Shown: piece by piece, positions 9,951-33,470 of the stretch
Layout: every line of letters starts with the position of its first letter
Numbering within the stretch: the stretch's first letter is position 1
Source: a virus
Virus record (IMG/VR): IMGVR_UViG_3300013772_000021
Span: 1 to 44,815 of that record
Direction: 5' to 3' (one strand)
Length of the DNA: 44,815 bases
Position numbers and translations under genes: made by a program
The notes under the pieces: generated by a model
The model's input: only the letters and a program-made list of their open reading frames with translations
What the model was told of the DNA's origin: nothing
The model's database searches: none

Positions 9951-10520
9951 ATGCCTCAAATCAAAACTCTTCTCACCATTACTGATGCCGGTAAAGCTGG
10001 TGCGGGAACAACTTCGGCGGTGGATATTGCTGCTGTGTATCTAAAGATTGGTTCCCCTAAAGACCAAAGCATAAGACTCCAGCGTTACGTCAGCGATCTC
10101 GTTGCTCGGGGCCGTGATGGTTCCATCGCAATGCAGATTCAGAATGGCGATGCGGTTGCTGCGGCTGGAACTCTCACGTTGGCTCTTGTTGTTGCTACCG
10201 ACACTTGCATTATCAACGGCGTAACCTTTACTTGTGTTGTAAGTGGCGCAGCCGGAAACCAATTTAACGTTGGTGGCACGGATACGATTTCCGCGACTAA
10301 CTTGAGAGCTGCAATCAACGCTTCAGTTACTGCTGGTGTTGCTGGTTTAGTTACTGCGACATCCGCAACCACGGTTGTCACTGTGACGGCATCGACCACA
10401 GGAACTGCTGGTAATGGGTACACGCTAACGGGTAACGCCCACATTACCGCATCGGGCGCCCGGCTTACTGCTGGTGCGGCGGACACGGCAACCTCCAACA
10501 CGTTCAGCTACGGGATCTAA
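9951..10520 (+). CDS. Putative capsid decoration / virion structural protein
   Basis: 189 residues. The second half is beta-rich Ala/Thr/Val/Gly repeat (INGVTFTCVVSGAAGNQF, NLRAAINASVTAG, TGTAGNGYTLTG), a style found in phage virion surface proteins and decoration domains. It lies directly after the capsid gene with an AAGGA Shine-Dalgarno, and a strong hairpin follows. No enzymatic motif. Capsid decoration is inferred from position and composition; a tail component is possible. Confidence 0.6.
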   Translation: MPQIKTLLTITDAGKAGAGTTSAVDIAAVYLKIGSPKDQSIRLQRYVSDLVARGRDGSIAMQIQNGDAVAAAGTLTLALVVATDTCIINGVTFTCVVSGAAGNQFNVGGTDTISATNLRAAINASVTAGVAGLVTATSATTVVTVTASTTGTAGNGYTLTGNAHITASGARLTAGAADTATSNTFSYGI

Positions 10521-10683: not shown

Positions 10684-13600
10684 TTGGCAGTTTCACTCAC
10701 AGTTAACGGAACAATATACGCGTACCCGCAAACAGGTGATCCCGCTCCTTGGGGAGATGCTGCGTACCAGTGGGCGCAAGCAGTCACTGCTGGAATGCTT
10801 CAAAAGGCTGGTGGGAACTTCACTCTTACCGCCGACGCCAACTTCGGCCCCAACTTCGGTCTCCAATCTCAATATTACAAGTCCCGCACCGCAAACGTTT
10901 CCGCTACTGGAATAGTCCGCCTCGCTAACGTCGACACCATCAGCTGGAGAAACATTGCAAACGCAGCCGACGTTGCTCTTAACGCCAGTGCCGCGACTGA
11001 CGGAGTCCTGCAATATGGCGCCGTTGATCTCGTTGGTACAACGCTTACGCAAACGCTGACGAATAAAACAATCAGTGGTTCATCCAACACGCTGACGAAC
11101 GTTGGAGACGCAGCGCTTTCTACCAGCTATGTCAAAGCGGACGGTTCCCGCCCATTAACCGCTAACTGGGCCATAGGCGGATTTAATTTAGTGATGGGTG
11201 GTGGCGCAGTTACTGGATTCGGCACTCTAGTCAGCAACACAGCAAATTCCGCCAATACCGGAGCACTTAGATTAGGAAATTTAGATAAGGTTTCATGGCG
11301 CAACGCTGGAAATACGGCGAACGTCGATTTGTTTGTTGATGCAAGCAACGTTCTCAATGTCGTGAATAACACCGCAGCCCAATGGGGAAAAGTCTACATA
11401 CAAGGCGAGCCGACTAATACAACGCCCGCATTGATGATGCGCAATGTGACGAGTGGCATTGCAGTTGGCCACAACACGAATAGTGGCAACTCAATTAACT
11501 CGACTTTCTCGACAATGCTTGATGGGTATCAAGTTAATAACACCGTATGGCAATGGTCTCCGACGCCGAACAATCCACCCGCTTCTGCTCTTGGCACCGT
11601 CACTATTTATCAAAGCAACTACGAAGCATCCCGCACTCTATATGCCACTACCTATACGAATTGGATAGTTACAACCTCCAGCTCAACTGTTTTTACGCTC
11701 GCACCGGGCGTCGGCGCATCCCCCGCAAGTATCGCGAACAACGGAACCTACACGGCAACGATACCAGCGATAGGAAACCAAGATCCTATTTTCGTAGGTT
11801 TCACACACGGCCCGGCGGCAACTCAAGAACCTTATCCTGGTAACGTACAAGTTGTTTCAATCACCTGGGCGGCGGGAACGCTTACGGTTACGACACAGCC
11901 CCAGCCAATTCTGTACTACAATGTTGGCAGCGAGCGGCAATCAGTCGGGCAACTTAGTATTACTGGCAATACCATTTTGATGAACGGAGTCGATACTGGC
12001 TCTGGGCGCATTCCGATGCGCAACATCATCACAGGCGGGACACCAGCGGACTGTTTAGTTATAGGTGCAGGCCCCTTCGCTGGTTCCGCTGCTCCGAGTT
12101 TTCCGTTCGGTGCTGCAAACGGAATGAGCGGGTCGAGCATCTACACGTATGGCACCGACTTTCCAGATCCACTGGCGATAACTGCAAAAGCGGCATGCAT
12201 TGATTTTTATAATGATGGTCAACTAAATGGTTCCATCATTGGTATTGGTGGAGGACCTACTAGCGCTTCTTTGCGGGGACAATGGAATATTGGTCCTGTT
12301 GGTGGGGTAATGACCCACAACGTAAACGGGGCTTTAAACGTAACCGGAGCTTTAAATTCTGGTGCGATAAGCATAGGCTCTACAACGCCAAGCATCGCCC
12401 TACGCTCGACGACGACTCTCGCTGGCACTGGGCAGTCGTACGTTATTTTCGGCGATACGGGACAAGACAAAGCATATCTTGGCTACGACGGTCGCCACGA
12501 TAATAAAATGCGGCTCTCGTTCTACGGCTCGACGGGCACAACTGTAGGCAACAAAGCGTTGCTCATGAGTCACGGAAACACCGGGGACTCTTGGGTCTTA
12601 GATACTGACTCAATTACCTCGACGGGCGATATCACTGCCGGTTCCGCTGTCATTATCAATGTGCCTGCTGCTGTCACAGCAAAAATACTACCGGGCTCAG
12701 TTCTTTATAGCGGCACTCAACTAGCTGACAAGATCTCGGTCGTAAACTCAGCGACAGTCTTCACCGTCGTAACTGGCGGCGCATATCCCACGGGCGGAGG
12801 TACAATTGCGGATCAAGACACTGGAACGTTGCTCACGTACACCGCGTATAACGCCGGTACGAAACAGTTCACGGTTGCTAGCACGGCCGGGCTTTTAGCA
12901 AACGACACTACCTACTGCTCGGTTGGTATCCCTCTTTACGCAACAGTTAGCAGCGTAGGCGCGACGACCTTAACCATGGATCGCAACGCTGTTTCAACGG
13001 TTACGGGACTGACATTTTATTCTGGTAACCCCAGTTTCGGCAATTTGACTATGGCAACTGCCGGTACAAGAGCCGGCGTCGATAATGGAGTGCTAAATCT
13101 CTACGGCGCAAACCCACTTTCAAATCCACAGGCGGGTATCTTATACCTCCACAATAATGACCCCTACCATACCCCCGGTCGCACCTGTGGTATTACGTTT
13201 TTCGGTGATGGTCCGCTCAATACTCGCGGAGTAGGTCCGGCTGGTTGCCCGATTGGAACGGTCAATTTCTACGTTGAGAACGACAATCCCGGCCCTGTTG
13301 GTTCCGGCAACATGGCGATCAATGTTTGCGATGGTACGACTTATCGCAATGCAATGTCATCGGATCACACGGGCAACGTAACCCTCGGTTCTAATGCATC
13401 TACGTCGCAAGCGATAAACGGTATCTTGACCGTTAAATACAACGGGACCCAAACACTGAAGTCAGATAACTTTGGTGATCTCCACGTTGGAAGTGCTGGT
13501 AGTGCGATTCGCAGCTATGGTTCGGCGTTGTTCCTAAACTATTCCTCTACTCCCGCCACTACTTCATTTATTACAACTAATAGCTTAACCGGAGCAGTCG

Positions 13601-16730: not shown

Positions 16731-17642
16731 ATGGACTACACCACTACAGCCTTGCTCTCTTCTATCAAGAATAGAGTTTTCATACCCACGTCCCAACTCA
16801 CGCTCCAGGACACAGACCTTCTTTCTCTGGCTGGTGAAGAGTTGCGGCTGGGCGTTGTGCCGCTGATGTTGAAGATGCGCAGTAACTACTTTGCGACGCA
16901 TCTAGATACTCTGCTGACCAGTAACAATGACACCTACTCAATCCCCTACCGTGCAGTAGGCGGTAAGCTGCAAGGATTGAACCTTGTCGATGCGCAGGGG
17001 AATGTTTTCGACTTCCCGGAAATCGATAAGTCTGAACGTCCCTTCTACAATGGTTCCGCCACAAACTCCGGCTTCGTCCATTACTTCGAAGGCAACAACG
17101 TAATTGTTGTTCCTTCTCCGTCAGCGTCAACGATTGCTTACATCCGCTTCAACTACTATTTCAGAACTGGCGATCTGGTAGCGACGTCGGCGGCGGCGCA
17201 GATTACCGCAATTGCCGGAAACGTCGTAACCGTATCCGCAGCCCCATCTGCATTCACCACCGCTCTACAATACGATGTCATTAACGGTTCTCCTGGCTTT
17301 GAGCCTCGTGGGTATGATCTCGCCGTAACAACTATTGCTGGCGCGAATATTACCTTCACTGCTCTTCCAGCTAAAGCTGCCATTGGTGACTGGATTGCAC
17401 AAGCAGGGCAATCACCTATTGCGCAAATCCCATATGAGCTTCACCCACTGCTTGCTCAACGAACGGGCATCCGCGTTCTCGCAGCACTCGGGGATGCCCA
17501 GTCCCTGCAGATGGAGCAGGCAAAGTTGAAGGAGATGGAAGAGGCGGCGACGCACATCCTCGCCCCCCGCTCCGAGATGAATCCTAAGAAACTAAACAAC
17601 CGCTTCAGCACTCTACGCACCTCATCCTCATCGAAATTCTAA
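16731..17642 (+). CDS. Putative head-to-tail adaptor / tail accessory protein
   Basis: 303 residues. Helical ends (DTDLLSLAGEELRLGVVPLM near the N-terminus; MEQAKLKEMEEAATHIL near the C-terminus) flank a beta-rich centre (residues ~125-245). Helical bundle plus beta insert, position between portal/capsid and the gp10-like hub, and lack of enzymatic motif fit an adaptor that binds under the portal (the role of gp4 in P22-like phages). Stop and next ATG are contiguous (TAAATG), so it is coupled with the hub gene. Start ATG chosen as the first in frame; no strong Shine-Dalgarno is seen upstream. Confidence 0.6.
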   Translation: MDYTTTALLSSIKNRVFIPTSQLTLQDTDLLSLAGEELRLGVVPLMLKMRSNYFATHLDTLLTSNNDTYSIPYRAVGGKLQGLNLVDAQGNVFDFPEIDKSERPFYNGSATNSGFVHYFEGNNVIVVPSPSASTIAYIRFNYYFRTGDLVATSAAAQITAIAGNVVTVSAAPSAFTTALQYDVINGSPGFEPRGYDLAVTTIAGANITFTALPAKAAIGDWIAQAGQSPIAQIPYELHPLLAQRTGIRVLAALGDAQSLQMEQAKLKEMEEAATHILAPRSEMNPKKLNNRFSTLRTSSSSKF

Positions 17643-20540
17643 ATGGCTAATTCTCCAAGCACCAAAATAAAGGGCCTATATTCATACCCTAATCCCCTCG
17701 GTGAAGTACCGAAGGGTGCGCTCGCCATTGCCGACAACATCGTTATTGATGCAGATGGCTCGGCGCAATCTCGTCGAGGCTTTGATGTTCTAGCAGAATC
17801 CATAGGTACTGTTTCCAGCCGAATCAATAAGCTCTTTAGTTACCAGAACCAAGTTCTTGCCCACTACGATGTTAACTCCCTCGCATATAGGAATGTTGGA
17901 ACAGGCTGGTCCCCATACTCCGGTACCTATACGCCCATTAATGCAGCGTCGACTAAGGTTCGTAGCGCTGAAAGTAACAGCAACTTCTACTTCACCACCA
18001 ATAACGGAATCTATCGGCTGGATGCATACACAGGTACTCCAGTTCTGTCTGGCGGGCTTAAGGCCTTGGACGTTAAAGGCACTCTGGTCAATTCAGGTTC
18101 GGGGTATTTGACCAACAATAGTGTTTTGACGACGACAGGTAACACCCACACCACTACCACAATCGATGGGATGACAACGACTGCGGGTGTGTTGGTCGGT
18201 ATGTATGTTAGTGGGACCGGCATTCCAACCGGCACCACGGTTACCTCGATAGTTGCCAACACCTCAGTTGTTTTAAGCCAAGCCGCAACCACGACAGCAT
18301 CAGCAGTTAGTATTCAATTCTATAGTGGCTCACAAACCGCCTACAGAATTCTTTGGGGTTTTAGAGATGCTAACAAAAACTTAATCCTAGGCACGCCCTC
18401 TCAGCGAACGGTTGTCACGAATGTCACGGCGACGGCGTCGGATGTGAATTTGCAGATTACGGTTCCCGCTGGTGCCACAGTCAATCACCTTTACCAAGTC
18501 TACCGAGCACCCTCTACCGTCAACTCCACAGTTGAACCTTCAGATGAAATGCAGCTGGTGTATGAAGGGAATCCTACAGCGGGACAAATCACCGCACTTT
18601 CCATCACACAACCTGATGCTACCTCAGACTCGTTGAAGGGCGCCTACATCTATACGGCATCAAGCCAAGATGGAATTCTTCAGAGTAACGAAGTTCCTCC
18701 ACTCTCAAACGACATTGCGTTTTACCGCAACGTAATGCTGTATGCGAACGTCACCTCTCGTCAGCGACTTAAGCTTACATTGTTGGCAGCGGGTGGAACT
18801 TCGGGCGTGCAGAATGGTGACACTATTACCATTGCTGGTACTACGTACACGGCTAATGGCGTGCAGACTACAGGCACTCTTGCAGGATCTACAACCGTTA
18901 CTGTCACCTCCGCCACGGGAATTTCCATTGGGCAAACTGTCGTCGGTACTGGCATTCAGGTTGGTACAACTGTTACAAATGTCGTTGGCACAGCTGTTAC
19001 GCTAAGTCTTGCCGCTACGGCAAGTGGCGCTGGTATCACACTCTCCTTCTATAAAGAAGGCGCGAACATATTCGCCGTTATCCTAGGCGGTACACCATCG
19101 CAGAATATCCGCGATACGACCAACTCCCTCGTTCGCACCATCAACCAGTCTACCTTAAACACCTCCGTCTACGCTTTCTACACCTCCGCCTACACTGACC
19201 TTCCCGGCAAGATGAACATTGAAGGGCAGACATTAGGTACAGCAGCTTTCTCTGTAACAGCAAGCGCTCACGGAACGGCGTTCACTCCGCAACTCCCAAC
19301 GTCAGGGGTAACAGTTCTGTCGACGGCGGATGTTTATAAGAACGCCATCATGGTCTCTAAGACCGGACAGCCCGAAGCCGTCCCCCTAACCAGCATTTTC
19401 TACGTCGGTAGCGCGGCTTATGGGATAGATCGCATCATCCCCTTACGTGATTCCGTATTCATCTTTAAACAAGACGGAATCTTTAAACTGGTTGGGCAAA
19501 CAAGTTCCAACTTCTACGTCGACGCCTTCGACAACACCACCAAGTTGATTGCACCCGAAACTGCCGTTAACTTAAACAACACCATCTACTGTCTGAGTGA
19601 TCAAGGAGTGGTTAGTGTTTCTGACACCGGCATTAGCGTCGTGTCCCGCCCGATTGAAGGGGATCTCCTAACCCTCCTCGGACTCAACCTAACCAGCGTT
19701 CAGAACCTCTCCTTCGGCATCAGCTACCAGAGTGATCGAAAATACATTCTGGGTATTATTAGCAATGCTATTGATGCAAACCCAACTCAACTCTACGTCT
19801 ACAACCTGTTCACCAATGCCTGGACGAGATGGACGTTGGCTAAGGCGCACGGGATAGTAAACCCGGCGGATAATAAACTCTATCTAGCCGATGCCACTAC
19901 CAACTCTGTCAACTCTGAGCGCAAATCTTATAGTTATTTGGATTACGTTGAGGAGACGTATGCAACCTCGGTTACTTCATCTACTGGACTGTCAGTAGTT
20001 CTTGCAGACCTTACCAATTTAGCAATTGGGGATCTCCTCTATCAAAGCTACTCAGTTAAATCAGTAGTTACTGCGATCAATGTCCCAACCAACACAGTAA
20101 CCGTTCAAGATTCCGTTTCGTGGTCAGGGGCAGCGGTAACTGTATACAAAGCCATCAACTGCATCATCAAACTTCAAGTGCAGACGGGAGATTCTCCAGA
20201 GGTCTTAAAACAGTTTTCAGAGCTGGAAATGTTTTTTCGTAAAGCAAGATTCAACCAAGCAACGCTTACGTTTACATCAGACCTAAGTGGATTTACTGAC
20301 TCGCTAACCTTGACTGGCATTAATAACGGAAGCTTTGGACTCTTTACGTTTGGCGGAGGAACAACGGTGCCTTTTGGTGGTTTGCTGCAACCAGCTCCTA
20401 TCCGCACCTACATCCCGCGCGCTAAACAACGCTGCTCACAATTAAACATCACATTCACTCATCGCGTAGCGTACGGAGATTTTATCCTCGATGGCATCAA
20501 CCTTAAAGAGAGAGCGATCTCAGATAATGTGACAAGGTAG
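17643..20540 (+). CDS. Tail hub / DNA stabilisation protein, gp10-like
   Basis: 965 residues. N-terminal GLYSYPNPLGEVPKGAL, NIVIDADGSAQSRRGFDVL is the opening seen in podovirus hub proteins of the P22 gp10 type. Later IPLRDSVFIFKQDGIFKLVG, LIAPETAVNLNNTIYCLSDQGV and LYVYNLFTNAWTRW are beta-propeller style repeats. Gly/Thr-rich inserts (near residues 176-206 and 424-450) carry a GTGI..GTTVT pattern repeated within the protein. It would plug the channel and anchor the tail. It ends at UAG (20538-20540); the frame stays open beyond that stop into the 140-residue sequence at 20550-20972, so a readthrough product of about 1109 residues is possible. Confidence 0.85.
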   Translation: MANSPSTKIKGLYSYPNPLGEVPKGALAIADNIVIDADGSAQSRRGFDVLAESIGTVSSRINKLFSYQNQVLAHYDVNSLAYRNVGTGWSPYSGTYTPINAASTKVRSAESNSNFYFTTNNGIYRLDAYTGTPVLSGGLKALDVKGTLVNSGSGYLTNNSVLTTTGNTHTTTTIDGMTTTAGVLVGMYVSGTGIPTGTTVTSIVANTSVVLSQAATTTASAVSIQFYSGSQTAYRILWGFRDANKNLILGTPSQRTVVTNVTATASDVNLQITVPAGATVNHLYQVYRAPSTVNSTVEPSDEMQLVYEGNPTAGQITALSITQPDATSDSLKGAYIYTASSQDGILQSNEVPPLSNDIAFYRNVMLYANVTSRQRLKLTLLAAGGTSGVQNGDTITIAGTTYTANGVQTTGTLAGSTTVTVTSATGISIGQTVVGTGIQVGTTVTNVVGTAVTLSLAATASGAGITLSFYKEGANIFAVILGGTPSQNIRDTTNSLVRTINQSTLNTSVYAFYTSAYTDLPGKMNIEGQTLGTAAFSVTASAHGTAFTPQLPTSGVTVLSTADVYKNAIMVSKTGQPEAVPLTSIFYVGSAAYGIDRIIPLRDSVFIFKQDGIFKLVGQTSSNFYVDAFDNTTKLIAPETAVNLNNTIYCLSDQGVVSVSDTGISVVSRPIEGDLLTLLGLNLTSVQNLSFGISYQSDRKYILGIISNAIDANPTQLYVYNLFTNAWTRWTLAKAHGIVNPADNKLYLADATTNSVNSERKSYSYLDYVEETYATSVTSSTGLSVVLADLTNLAIGDLLYQSYSVKSVVTAINVPTNTVTVQDSVSWSGAAVTVYKAINCIIKLQVQTGDSPEVLKQFSELEMFFRKARFNQATLTFTSDLSGFTDSLTLTGINNGSFGLFTFGGGTTVPFGGLLQPAPIRTYIPRAKQRCSQLNITFTHRVAYGDFILDGINLKERAISDNVTR

Positions 20541-20549
20541 GGTAGTTAT

Positions 20550-20972
20550 ATTTTTTTACCGCCAGTACGTAGATTACTTACCGACGACTTCCCCAAAGAA
20601 CAACAAGGCTGGGTAGGTAAATTACTCTCTCCACTAAATCAAGTTTTCCAATCGCTCTCCGTTGGACTTCAACACGGCCTTACATTCCAAGACAACATTG
20701 CGGCGCAGATCTATAGCATCGCATTTAACAACAACATTAACGAACTCTCCTCCGCCCACCCCATACTCATCAAAAGCACGCTCACCACTAACCCTTTCGG
20801 CGTATGGGTCATCAATGCTGTCGATACCAGCACCCAAACGCAACCCCAAGCACTTGTGGGGGCTGTTTTCGTTACCTGGATCTTTAACGCCGCAACCAAT
20901 CAAGTAAACATATCTGCCATTTCAGGGCTGGTGTCCGGCCAACAGTACAAAATTACCCTAATCATTATATAA
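20550..20972 (+). CDS. Phage structural-type protein with ATT as the only plausible start
   Basis: 140 residues, mean composition of a genuine protein: LPPVRRLLTDDFPKEQQGW, then LLSPLNQVFQSLSVGLQHGL, TFQDNIAAQIYSIAF, PFGVWVINAV, NISAISGLVSGQQYKI. The layout (KLLSPLN, GLTFQDN, PFGVWV, I.I..I.GL..G..YKI) resembles a small protein often found after tail hub genes in podoviruses (recalled, not searched). No ATG, GTG or TTG exists in this frame before the conserved part. ATT at 20550 has AGGG 7 nt upstream. It is also in frame with the tail hub, only three codons after that gene's UAG, so stop readthrough is the alternative. A sequencing error turning ATG into ATT would explain it too. Confidence 0.7.
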   Translation: MFLPPVRRLLTDDFPKEQQGWVGKLLSPLNQVFQSLSVGLQHGLTFQDNIAAQIYSIAFNNNINELSSAHPILIKSTLTTNPFGVWVINAVDTSTQTQPQALVGAVFVTWIFNAATNQVNISAISGLVSGQQYKITLIII

Positions 20973-21013: not shown

Positions 21014-22552
21014 ATGCCCTACCTATTCAACGACCCCTCCGAAGAAGACCAAAAGAATATGCAAGCTGGTGCAGGTTCTGCGGGTCCCGGTCAGCAAGCG
21101 CCACAACTCTCCAAAGAGTCCGGTAGTTCCTTTGGCGGCTCTGGCGCGTCCGCAATTCAAGGGGGATCTAAAGCCGATGCAACACCCTCTTCGTCCGGCT
21201 CCTTCGTCAACTTACAGAAGTACCTCGATGCCAACGCTGATCAATCTCCCGCCAATCAAATTGCTGGGAGGATTGGTAATGAGGCGGGTAAAGCTAGTGG
21301 GGATCTTAACTCTGCAACGAACAGCTTCACCACCAAAGCCGAGGGCGCAACCACTCATTACAATAAAGACCTGGTTGATAACTCTCTTAAAGATCCGACG
21401 GCAGCGGCTAATGATCCTAATCAACTTGGCGCATTCCAAAAGCAACTGAACGCTTCCTATGGCTCCGGCCCCAAGTCTCTCAATGATGTTTCTGGCTATG
21501 ATCCCAATGAAGGCGCCAATGCTCAGTCTCTCGTCGATCAGACGAAAAGTGAAAATGGTCAGTTCGGTTTATTGCAGAGATATTTCGGGGGGCCTAATCA
21601 ATACTCCAGAGGCGAGCAGGGTCTAGATCAATACTTGTTGCAGGCGGCTCCAGGAAGCCCACAAGCATTAAAGAGCGTTCAAGATAAGTACGGAAATATT
21701 GCCCAGCAGTATGGGAACGCTCAAGCGGCAGCCCAAGATCTATATGGGAAAGATAGTGCTGAGACAAAACAAGCGCATGATTATGCGCAGGCTCAATATG
21801 GTGGAGCTAACACCAACCTTCAGAATGATGTCACAACTGCACTTGGGAATGCAAAAACCCAGCAGACAACTAAGTATAACGATCTTAATAGTGCGTTAAC
21901 CGGGCGGACTATGAGTCAAAGCCAGTTAGAAAAGCTGGGGCTCAATGATAGCCAATACCAACATGATGGCGCGCTTAGACTCTATGGATTACATCCTGAA
22001 AACTATCTGGGTAAAGCAGTAGACCCAACTTTAGGCTCTGTTGCCACAAAGGATCAAGCGGCGAGGTCGGCGGCCTTGGCTAAACTTGGAGGTACAACTA
22101 ATACCTTTCTGCCTGATGGTTCTTTGGCCGGTACTTATACGAGCGACCCAACGTTTAATCGGAGTCAGTTTGGTCAAGATCTTATAGGCAAAGAACAGGC
22201 ATACCAAAACGATCTTAAGAACACAGATAACCTTGTCACTGATCCTTTTTCTGGAGGTACGGCAGACCCAGAAATACACACAGAACCTGGGGCTAAGATG
22301 ACACTCCCTGAAGCAATAGCCCGCTTACTTCCGGCCTCTGAGGCTTACGCCAGGAATCCAGAGGGCAGTAAGTATTATGTCAAGGATGGAAGTAAGGAGC
22401 TGTCTCAGCAATATTCTCACTTACAGGAATTGCTGAAGGCTCGGCAGATTAAAGACGGGTATAGTGACACCCTTTCCTCTAACGGCGTTGCTCCTACTGT
22501 TCCGCCCCCAACCGATCGATTCGCTCCCCGCCCACGACGCGGCGGCGCCTAA
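21014..22552 (+). CDS. Putative ejection (internal virion) protein 1
   Basis: 512 residues, rich in Gln, Gly, Ala, Ser and Asn, with no long hydrophobic stretch. The N-terminus is low-complexity (GAGSAGPGQQAP, SSFGGSGAS), the middle helical and Gln/Asn-rich with many Tyr, the C-terminus Pro/Arg rich (PPPTDRFAPRPRRGGA). Composition and place after the tail hub match internal proteins ejected with DNA. The ATG follows a TATATATATA tract; instead of a Shine-Dalgarno the sequence just upstream is CCTCCT, which resembles the anti-Shine-Dalgarno, so translation start is non-standard. Confidence 0.6.
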   Translation: MPYLFNDPSEEDQKNMQAGAGSAGPGQQAPQLSKESGSSFGGSGASAIQGGSKADATPSSSGSFVNLQKYLDANADQSPANQIAGRIGNEAGKASGDLNSATNSFTTKAEGATTHYNKDLVDNSLKDPTAAANDPNQLGAFQKQLNASYGSGPKSLNDVSGYDPNEGANAQSLVDQTKSENGQFGLLQRYFGGPNQYSRGEQGLDQYLLQAAPGSPQALKSVQDKYGNIAQQYGNAQAAAQDLYGKDSAETKQAHDYAQAQYGGANTNLQNDVTTALGNAKTQQTTKYNDLNSALTGRTMSQSQLEKLGLNDSQYQHDGALRLYGLHPENYLGKAVDPTLGSVATKDQAARSAALAKLGGTTNTFLPDGSLAGTYTSDPTFNRSQFGQDLIGKEQAYQNDLKNTDNLVTDPFSGGTADPEIHTEPGAKMTLPEAIARLLPASEAYARNPEGSKYYVKDGSKELSQQYSHLQELLKARQIKDGYSDTLSSNGVAPTVPPPTDRFAPRPRRGGA

Positions 22553-27514: not shown

Positions 27515-27704
27515 TCTTATAGTCCTTCTACTATTATCTGCTTCCTGTGCCCATAACTCCCCCTTACCAGCCGATCTAAAAGCCGAGGATGATCTTCTTC
27601 GGCAACAGAATCAAACCCTCCGTAGAGATCTGAAAGAGGCTGAAGACGATCTCTCAACAGCCATGAAACGAATCCAAGACTGTGAACCGCTTATCAAGAA
27701 TTAA
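27492..27704 (+). CDS. Lipoprotein, candidate outer-membrane spanin (Rz1-like)
   Basis: 70 residues. Signal peptide MKKISAFSLIVLLLLSASC with lipobox L-S-A-S-C; Cys19 would be the lipidated residue. The mature part is short and mostly a coiled-coil helix (DDLLRQQNQTLRRDLKEAEDD, LSTAMKRIQD). Overlap with the upstream membrane-anchored gene and position beside holin-like genes suggest an o-spanin, which fuses outer and inner membrane at lysis in Gram-negative hosts. It lacks the Pro-rich composition of classical Rz1. Confidence 0.6.
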   Translation: MKKISAFSLIVLLLLSASCAHNSPLPADLKAEDDLLRQQNQTLRRDLKEAEDDLSTAMKRIQDCEPLIKN

Positions 27705-28305
27705 GACCCGCTTACAACAGTTTCCAAACAAAGCATTCCTCTCATTGCTCCTAGTAAACTTTATTGTTTGCTTGGCTACTTCAATAAACCCAAACCTCTA
27801 CAGATACCTTTGCTTCCGTCCAGAGTTAATGGGAACGTTGAAGGGACTTGTGGGTATTGTGACTCACATGTTTACTCACGGCGGGTGGGAACACTTTCTG
27901 GGTAACTTCCTCTACGTTGCACCCTTCGCCATCTTTCTAGAGAACAAGATCGGGTCGCGGAAGTTCTTAGCGACGTGGTTAATTACTGGTTTGGGGGGAT
28001 TGGCTTTAATGCTGGTTATGCCCCACTTATTTGGTATGGGCTGGATGCTTGGTGCGAGTGGTTGTTGCTTCGGTGTGATGGCAACAGCGTGTCTGTACTT
28101 TGATGATTCTAAGATCCATCAGTATCTAGGCGTCTGCTACTTACTGCTGCAACTTATTCCGCAGATGATTAGTGGTGTCTATGCGACGGTTGCTCCAGGG
28201 GGCGTTGCCTACTTCGCTCATGCGGGGGCTGCCCTGACGGCTATCTTGCTGGCGCATTACCTAAAGAAAGATGAGACCAAGTTATGTTCCACATCATCGA
28301 AGTAA
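27682..28305 (+). CDS. Rhomboid-family intramembrane serine protease
   Basis: 207 residues with five to six membrane segments. Rhomboid signatures are all present: H62/H66 with N75 in THMFTHGGWEHFLGNFLYV (62-79 region), the catalytic serine motif G124-A-S126-G127, and the catalytic His180 in YFAHAGAALTA with following G182. Rhomboids cleave membrane proteins within or near the bilayer. The GTG start overlaps the lipoprotein gene. A rhomboid in the lysis/membrane cassette is unusual; candidate substrates are neighbouring lysis membrane proteins or host envelope proteins. Length is near the minimal rhomboid core. Confidence 0.88.
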   Translation: MNRLSRIKTRLQQFPNKAFLSLLLVNFIVCLATSINPNLYRYLCFRPELMGTLKGLVGIVTHMFTHGGWEHFLGNFLYVAPFAIFLENKIGSRKFLATWLITGLGGLALMLVMPHLFGMGWMLGASGCCFGVMATACLYFDDSKIHQYLGVCYLLLQLIPQMISGVYATVAPGGVAYFAHAGAALTAILLAHYLKKDETKLCSTSSK

Positions 28306-31151: not shown

Positions 31152-33254
31152 CTATTCTACGACGTCTTTTTCGTCGAAAGAGTTTAGAACTTTCATGTCT
31201 GTTTTTAATGGCACCGACAGCGTATACGTCGTCTCCAGCACCTTACGAATCTCTTCAGCCTTGTGGATCTCATCTCTCCCAACTTCAATAATGACTGAGT
31301 CGTGTACGGTGGTCACAATGTGGTATCCCAGCTTGTCGAGTTGGATTAAGGACCTCTTACAGATCGACGCTGCAAGGCACTGGATGGGAAAATTCAGCGC
31401 TTGTTTCTTGGCATGCGCAAAGGTCATTCCCGCCTCATTAAAGATCTCGTCTGAGGTTGGTTGTGGCGCAGGAACATATCTCGCCCCCCTCGGCTGCTTT
31501 GAGTGCCACTTGCCTTGAATTGCCTTAACCAATGGATCAACTAACTCCTTCGGCCCCGTAAACGCGCGCTGAGGTCTGTATTCGATGTAATTCCCATATA
31601 CAATCTCTGGCAGTCTCCGCACCCGGCCAGTCTCACTCACCACGCGCTGATATCGACGAGCAAACACCAGTTGTTCATTAAGGTACTGGTCCAGACGTTT
31701 ATATTTCTGAAAGAACTTCGTGATGATCTCTTTGCACTGGTCTTCCGGTAGATCCAACTTCGCCGACTCAAGAAGCTGGTCATGTAGCCGTCGGGGGCCT
31801 CCACGGAATATAAGCAAGAAGTTAGTCGCCTTGGCCGCTTGTCGCATCCAGTCCGTCACCTTGTCGCGCTCGACATCGAAAACACTCATGGCCGTATTGA
31901 TGTGAGGATCTTCGTTGTCGAGGAACGCGTTCATTAGGTCTTGGTCTTGGCTAAGGTGGGCGGCAACGCGCAATTCAATCTGTGAATAATCGAAGTACAG
32001 AAACATCCGATCATCCGTCGTCGGTCTAAAGAACCGTTTAACGGGGGAGTTCCGGGGAAGGTTTTGGAAATTTGGGTCTTGGCTGGATAAACGCCCTGTA
32101 AGCGGCCGTTGCGGGTAACGTGGGTGGATATAAGGTATTCCGCCCTTATCGACGACGTGGGACATAATCCCAACGTTCGCATCACCTACATACGTGCGGG
32201 AAATCTTATCAACTTTTTTATATTGCTGGAACGAGCGGAGTACGGGGACGAGGGCGTGCTTGGAGGGAAGTAAGGCCATCAAGCGATTAATTTGTGATTC
32301 ATCCGTTCCCCAACGCCCGGACTCAGTTTTCGCGTGAAGGTGCGGGGGCGTCTCAAACTTCACATAAAAGAGTTCTCCCAAGTGCTCAGCGCTACCCCAG
32401 TTGAATGCGGTTTTCTGCTTCTTATCACCGCGCTTAAGATTCTTCTTCGCCTTCTCAGTTACCTTCGTCGCCAGCACTGTCTGGTAGAGGGAATCCTCAA
32501 TGCTTTGGATTTTATCCGCACAAAGGGCCAGCATTTTACCCTTAAGGTCCGCCGCCTGCGTATCCGCATCCTTCCTCATCTCCTCCACCAGCTCTGTACG
32601 CACACGGACACCATTCAATTCAATGTTGAATAGGACCGACTCCAGCGGAAGGGTCTCTTTCAGCAAATAGGTAAGAGGTGATTCTTTGATCCCCCACGTT
32701 TGAGTAACGCGGGTGTGGATGTTCTTAAGCTTTTCCTTACCGACGTGGAAGAGTTTGAACGTATTTTTCACATCTTCCATCGCATACTCAGAAATGAGGT
32801 GGAGGTGAGGGTGAAGAGGATCGTTTAGATCCAGCTTACAGAGGGCGCCGACATGTTTTACTCCCGCTGTCTTGAGGGCTTCATCGAGGCGTTTTTTGTT
32901 CTTTAGGAAACCCAGCCCTAGGTAGCGCTCCGTCAGCTCTTTTAAGCCCAAAGATCCATTTTCATCAATTTGCTGGAACACCAACAACGTATCGAAGATG
33001 GGACCAGCAATCTTTACGCCCTTGCGAGCGAGGAACATTGGATCAAAGCGGCGACCACTGTGGGACACTTTGGTTACTGTGGGATCGGCGAGTTTCTCTC
33101 GCACCGTATAAGGCATTGCCCACCAGGGGCTATAGATCGCTTCATCCTCTTCCTGTAACCAAGCAATGCCATGGATCTCGTCATGGAAGTCGTCAACGCC
33201 CGTAGATTCAATGTCGAAGAAAAAGTATTCGCGCTCTTTATTATTATTACTCAT
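31152..33254 (-). CDS. DNA polymerase, family A (3'-5' exonuclease plus polymerase)
   Basis: 700 residues; replicates the phage genome. N-terminal exonuclease domain: FFFDIESTG (DxE), SHSGRRFDPMFL with its Asp, YAMEDVK (Y..xD). Polymerase: motif A DYSQIELR near residue 420, motif B RQAAKATNFLLIF near 470-485, motif C VHDSVIIEV near 651. Lacks a 5'-3' nuclease domain. Motif B has Phe at the site equivalent to E. coli F762. Two departures: the usual Y-G after N-F-x-x-x is F-R (Y766 and G767 equivalents), and the second acidic residue of motif C is Ser. Good Shine-Dalgarno (GGGGAG). Confidence 0.93.
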   Translation of the reverse strand: MSNNNKEREYFFFDIESTGVDDFHDEIHGIAWLQEEDEAIYSPWWAMPYTVREKLADPTVTKVSHSGRRFDPMFLARKGVKIAGPIFDTLLVFQQIDENGSLGLKELTERYLGLGFLKNKKRLDEALKTAGVKHVGALCKLDLNDPLHPHLHLISEYAMEDVKNTFKLFHVGKEKLKNIHTRVTQTWGIKESPLTYLLKETLPLESVLFNIELNGVRVRTELVEEMRKDADTQAADLKGKMLALCADKIQSIEDSLYQTVLATKVTEKAKKNLKRGDKKQKTAFNWGSAEHLGELFYVKFETPPHLHAKTESGRWGTDESQINRLMALLPSKHALVPVLRSFQQYKKVDKISRTYVGDANVGIMSHVVDKGGIPYIHPRYPQRPLTGRLSSQDPNFQNLPRNSPVKRFFRPTTDDRMFLYFDYSQIELRVAAHLSQDQDLMNAFLDNEDPHINTAMSVFDVERDKVTDWMRQAAKATNFLLIFRGGPRRLHDQLLESAKLDLPEDQCKEIITKFFQKYKRLDQYLNEQLVFARRYQRVVSETGRVRRLPEIVYGNYIEYRPQRAFTGPKELVDPLVKAIQGKWHSKQPRGARYVPAPQPTSDEIFNEAGMTFAHAKKQALNFPIQCLAASICKRSLIQLDKLGYHIVTTVHDSVIIEVGRDEIHKAEEIRKVLETTYTLSVPLKTDMKVLNSFDEKDVVE

Positions 33255-33257
33255 AAT

Positions 33258-33470
33258 CTATTTCTCCCCTCCCTTAACTTCGTAAATCTCGGTAACGCGG
33301 TAGTACTCCTTCTCCCTCGTCTCCTCGAAGCACAGGGTATCCCCCTTCGTCAGAGTAAACGTCCTCTGCACCAGCTTCTCCGTGCAGTCGGGGACGTCGA
33401 TGAAAACAACGACGCGTTTCTTGCCACGTTCGTTCAGGACAAGCTTCATGTCTCTAATAGTGCCAATCAT
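33258..33470 (-). CDS. Hypothetical small beta-rich protein
   Basis: 70 residues: VVVFIDVPDCTEKLVQRTF, LTKGDTLCFEETREKEYYRV. Small-barrel (OB/SH3-like) impression; no recognised motif. Its ATG overlaps the upstream stop (TAATG). Confidence 0.65.
   Translation of the reverse strand: MIGTIRDMKLVLNERGKKRVVVFIDVPDCTEKLVQRTFTLTKGDTLCFEETREKEYYRVTEIYEVKGGEK

Follow-up and report, generated by a model that had tools for sequence, protein, structure and literature searches.

ATT in the start-codon place of a conserved small tail gene of a virus

In the IMG/VR record IMGVR_UViG_3300013772_000021, a large tail gene ends in TAG and the same reading frame then stays open, with none of the usual start codons at its beginning. 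This locus raises the question of whether the stretch after the TAG is a gene of its own that begins at an unusual codon, an extension reached by readthrough, or an ordinary gene in which one base has been misread. The window analysed here is the entire record, 44,815 bases. We find that the sequence from 20550 onward is very probably an independent virion gene within the tail module, small, conserved and otherwise ordinary, with one extraordinary base: in this window alone the start codon reads ATT, either a weak start of a rare kind or the product of a single-base sequence error. A correct base would make the locus an uncommon instance of AUU initiation in a phage structural gene, and a test case for how far a Shine–Dalgarno (SD) sequence and a terminating ribosome compensate when the start codon is weak; an incorrect one would make it an example of readthrough imitated by a single base. 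Whichever is true, the orphan tail family is useful for annotation, and this small tail gene would be lost or shortened by gene callers limited to ATG, GTG and TTG.

A conserved frame after the hub stop

The small gene follows a putative tail adaptor gene and the large tail gene, which we call the hub (Table 1). Behind the hub TAG at 20538–20540, its frame is open from 20541 to a TAA at 20970–20972, 143 codons, and the earliest in-frame ATG, GTG or TTG is the GTG at 20856. A start at this internal codon was rejected, as roughly 70% of the conserved protein would be lost.

Table 1 Features at and around the hub–small gene junction, in window coordinates
Feature	Position	Strand	Description
Putative tail adaptor gene	16731..17642	+	About 303 aa; before the hub; 46% identical to L002; role suggested by position
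Large tail 'hub' or nozzle-like gene	17643..20540	+	965 aa; ends in TAG; 57% identical to L002
SD-like AAGGTAGGG	20534..20542	+	Spans the hub stop; duplex energy −7.9 kcal/mol
Tandem GGTAG GGTAG	20536..20545	+	Supplies AGGG; read from the sequence
ATT in start-codon place	20550..20552	+	Aligned with the L002 ATG and the family profile's first residue
Small tail gene	20550..20972	+	140 aa; N-terminal helix and C-terminal β domain; 46 relatives; AlphaFold2 pLDDT 86.9
Run of seven T	20551..20557	+	Contains base 20552, the doubtful one; the window has five runs this long or longer

Relatives were located by searching with the hub; the small protein alone initially gave none, and a search of GenBank phages with it returned no match. 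The small-gene frame matches these relatives from first codon to last and is thus not a chance opening. The closest relative, L002, is 54% identical (E about 1e-45), the others are roughly 16–36% identical, and tblastn matched the small gene at 37 loci. Differences from L002 fall on the three codon positions at 0.37, 0.23 and 0.65, much as in the hub (0.37, 0.26 and 0.70), a pattern that indicates purifying selection. Wherever the sequence of a relative extends far enough, the gene lies after the hub; it usually encodes 129–143 aa, and its window copy keeps all conserved residues without a stop. These comparisons bear out two claims of an earlier, sequence-only reading of this DNA: that the frame after the hub TAG encodes a real conserved protein, and that no ATG, GTG or TTG stands ahead of its conserved part.

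Three relatives (L005, L020 and L022) have another stretch between hub and small gene. In L005, between the hub stop at 10470 and the small gene at 10928, this holds a frame resembling, on visual inspection, an HNH homing gene of the endonuclease VII type; the gap in L020 and L022 is longer too.

ATT where relatives have a canonical start

The ATG of L002 coincides exactly with the ATT of the window: the two proteins would begin MFLPPFKRL and IFLPPVRRL, with FLPP common to both, and the start regions read ...GGATTAATGTTTTTACCTCCG in L002 and ...AGTTATATTTTTTTACCGCCA in the window. The sequence-only reading had proposed ATT at 20550 as the start and had suggested looking for ATG at this place in relatives; the alignment upholds the position and reveals a separate, ATG-started gene there. 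Across 46 distinct relatives the small gene starts with ATG in 40, GTG in 5 and TTG in 1, and with ATT in none. When the three families with well-aligned N termini (adaptor, hub and small gene) are taken together, 144 of 145 starts are canonical, including the adaptor gene, which holds the same place in relatives and has a canonical start in all 51 N-terminally alignable loci; the one exception is the small gene of the window. Apparent missing starts of the genes at 21014 and 22605 and of MCP were left out of this count, as their N-terminal alignments look unreliable. Near 1671 in L007, 12198 in L059 and 9647 in L041, no canonical codon lies close to the profile start; these are probably misaligned N termini. 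Among the window genes conserved in relatives, the small gene alone lacks a canonical start near the beginning of its conserved part.

The ATT is preceded by a good SD-like site. As the sequence-only reading had pointed out, an AGGG (20539–20542) ends 7 nt upstream of it. An AAGG (20534–20537) lies further upstream. The duplex energy of the SD-like site ranks 13th among the 56 window genes, above the median, and is reached at 1.6% of random sites; within the family it is tied for fourth to fifth of 46, the value for L002 being −3.3. The tandem GGTAG may have arisen as a duplication, which could have made the SD.

Taken as written, and provided that the base is correct and decoded accordingly, the AUU at 20550 would be the start codon of the small gene. 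On this AUU, 9 nt downstream of the hub UAG, fMet-tRNA would be placed by the ribosome that has just terminated there, through presumed re-initiation, or by a fresh 30S subunit recruited to AAGGUAGGG. The protein would then be made at a reduced rate, which a tail part of presumably low copy number could tolerate. In most relatives the small gene begins within or immediately next to the hub stop (TAATG, ATGA), an arrangement that suits re-initiation and resembles the coupled stop–start gene pairs of E. coli (PMC2268962); the window differs from these in having ATT as its start and 9 nt between stop and start. Re-initiation at non-canonical codons has also been described in oocytes (PMC4648390), a setting that led us to put it aside.

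We give the actual use of AUU at 20550 as a start codon a probability of about 0.5. The above-median SD-like site and the terminating ribosome 9 nt upstream favour it, and stronger SDs tend to accompany weak start codons (PMC5622118); in Staphylococcus aureus, AUU starts with strong SDs, as in cvfC1, reach about 10% of AUG activity (PMC13009471). Against it, a strong SD would be expected with an ATG start as well, ATT occurs in no relative, and the doubtful base stands beside a T run. A fuller version, in which AUU truly initiates, the duplicated GGTAG built an SD that offsets the lost ancestral stop–start overlap, and a tail-tip protein is kept scarce by its weak start, is doubtful.

Starts at AUU are already known, if very rare: infC and pcnB of E. 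coli and cvfC1 of S. aureus begin with this codon, and the window would offer a new case of a known kind. In these genes the AUU is experimentally shown or conserved; the window case is a virion gene just after the stop of another gene. For infC, the AUU start is given through a reference in PMC2268962. All three genes resemble the window case in having AUU in the start place and an SD-like site upstream; in cvfC1, however, the AUU is conserved among staphylococci (PMC13009471), whereas in the window it occurs in one genome and is unproven.

The strongest rival is a consensus error. Here the true codon at 20550 would be ATG, the T at 20552 would be a miscall (G to T) or a minority variant, and the gene would be ordinary, with a good SD and ATG. 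This explanation fits the canonical starts in all 46 relatives, in 144 of the 145 starts of the three families and in the other conserved window genes. Base 20552 adjoins the T run, a setting in which a G could plausibly be miscalled as T, and a switch from ancestral AUG to AUU is extremely rare, with one case among 61,358 starts in a survey of closely related prokaryotes (PMC5622118). It is opposed by the condition of the record, which is not generally poor, since the window's conserved genes run uninterrupted over their full length and show neither frameshift nor break relative to L002. Neither another copy of this virus nor a closer one turned up in IMG/VR when DNA pattern, small gene and capsid served as queries, although near-identical records may escape such a search. 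We put a consensus error a little short of an even chance. Because our rough rates of consensus errors and of true AUU starts are similar, we regard the two as about equally likely, which is a judgement and not a measurement.

A recent start-codon mutation that cripples the small gene in this strain is highly improbable. ATT is a weak start common to no relative, as such a mutation would leave it; yet no relative of sufficient length lacks the gene, and the window copy keeps its conserved residues without a stop. A mutation so recent would not show in the reading frame alone.

The hub–small gene junction and readthrough

The sequence-only reading had also proposed that ribosomes pass the hub UAG to give a hub with a C-terminal extension, a proposal that the junctions of relatives do not sustain. 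In its favour, the hub frame continues without a stop beyond the UAG, in the window genome only. In relatives, small-gene starts lie −5 to +54 nt from the hub stop, with an offset of +2 (TAATG, TAGTG) 18 times and of −1 (ATGA, GTGA and similar) seven times. Where the frame relative to the hub was measured (41 relatives), it is +2 in 28, +1 in five and the hub frame in eight, so that 33 of the 41 lie in another frame than the hub, and readthrough is rejected; the eight in-frame genes, like all 46, have their own ATG, GTG or TTG. No fused homologue was seen. The frame that hub and small gene share is therefore real in the window but results from chance spacing and does not characterize the family.

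The window itself treats UAG as an ordinary stop. TAG ends 11 of its 56 genes, and behind a second TAG, too, a separate gene with an ATG start lies in frame: on the minus strand, 33258–33470 precedes the DNA polymerase at 31152–33254 (701 codons). ARAGORN found no tRNA gene in the window, and local RNA structure at the hub stop (20510–20590) is not notable (z 0.45 and −0.39). Readthrough is excluded for practical purposes, and recoding of TAG falls with it on the missing tRNA gene, the frames of relatives and the 11 genes that TAG ends. Slippage at the T run cannot supply a start, since no usable canonical codon lies just upstream in any frame: the ATG at 20528 meets TGA at once, and the GTG at 20530 meets the hub TAG or a stop.

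Protein, neighbouring genes and genome context

The AlphaFold2 model of the small protein (pTM 0.63) places the N-terminal helix at residues 16–41, followed by the C-terminal β domain. No Pfam or PHROG family covers the protein, and no fold match reaches E ≤ 0.001; several of the weak, non-significant matches are to tail fibres, tailspikes and appendages. In one relative (L048:7958–9139), the product is 394 aa long owing to an added Phage Tail Collar Domain (PF07484, 3.2e-15) behind the conserved part. This single case, together with the position after the hub, suggests that the small protein is probably a tail-tip or fibre-attachment part. The 199-aa protein of another relative (L025:7483–8079) contains an insertion, LLIGQSVAGTGIPTNTKISSI..., which resembles two stretches of the window hub, VLVGMYVSGTGIPTGTTVTSI... 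and ISIGQTVVGTGIQVGTTVTNV..., as though tail proteins exchanged a β domain.

Hubs of relatives match PHROG phrog_3287, 'virion structural protein' (1.4e-15); the window's own hub had no PHROG match, and its structure model is poor (pLDDT 53). Among named relatives, the nearest are a MAG contig from Bdellovibrionales (L070) and a phage of Silvanigrella aquatica (L018), and, judged from these sequence matches, the hosts may be Bdellovibrionota-like bacteria. Proteobacteria phage MWH-Nonnen-W8red 1 (CP017838) of Silvanigrella, an unannotated record, has a related hub, portal and capsid at about 28–32% identity; there the portal comes next after the hub, and no small gene could be found beside the latter.

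Elsewhere in the window, 27682–28305 encodes a membrane protein that by eye is rhomboid-like (HMFTHGGWEHFLGN), whose PHROG matches are all weak and to families of unknown function. Six frames dispersed through the phage genes (512–928, 3778–4296, 6877–7398, 28408–28983, 34513–35064 and 36388–36960) resemble HNH-type homing endonucleases on visual inspection.
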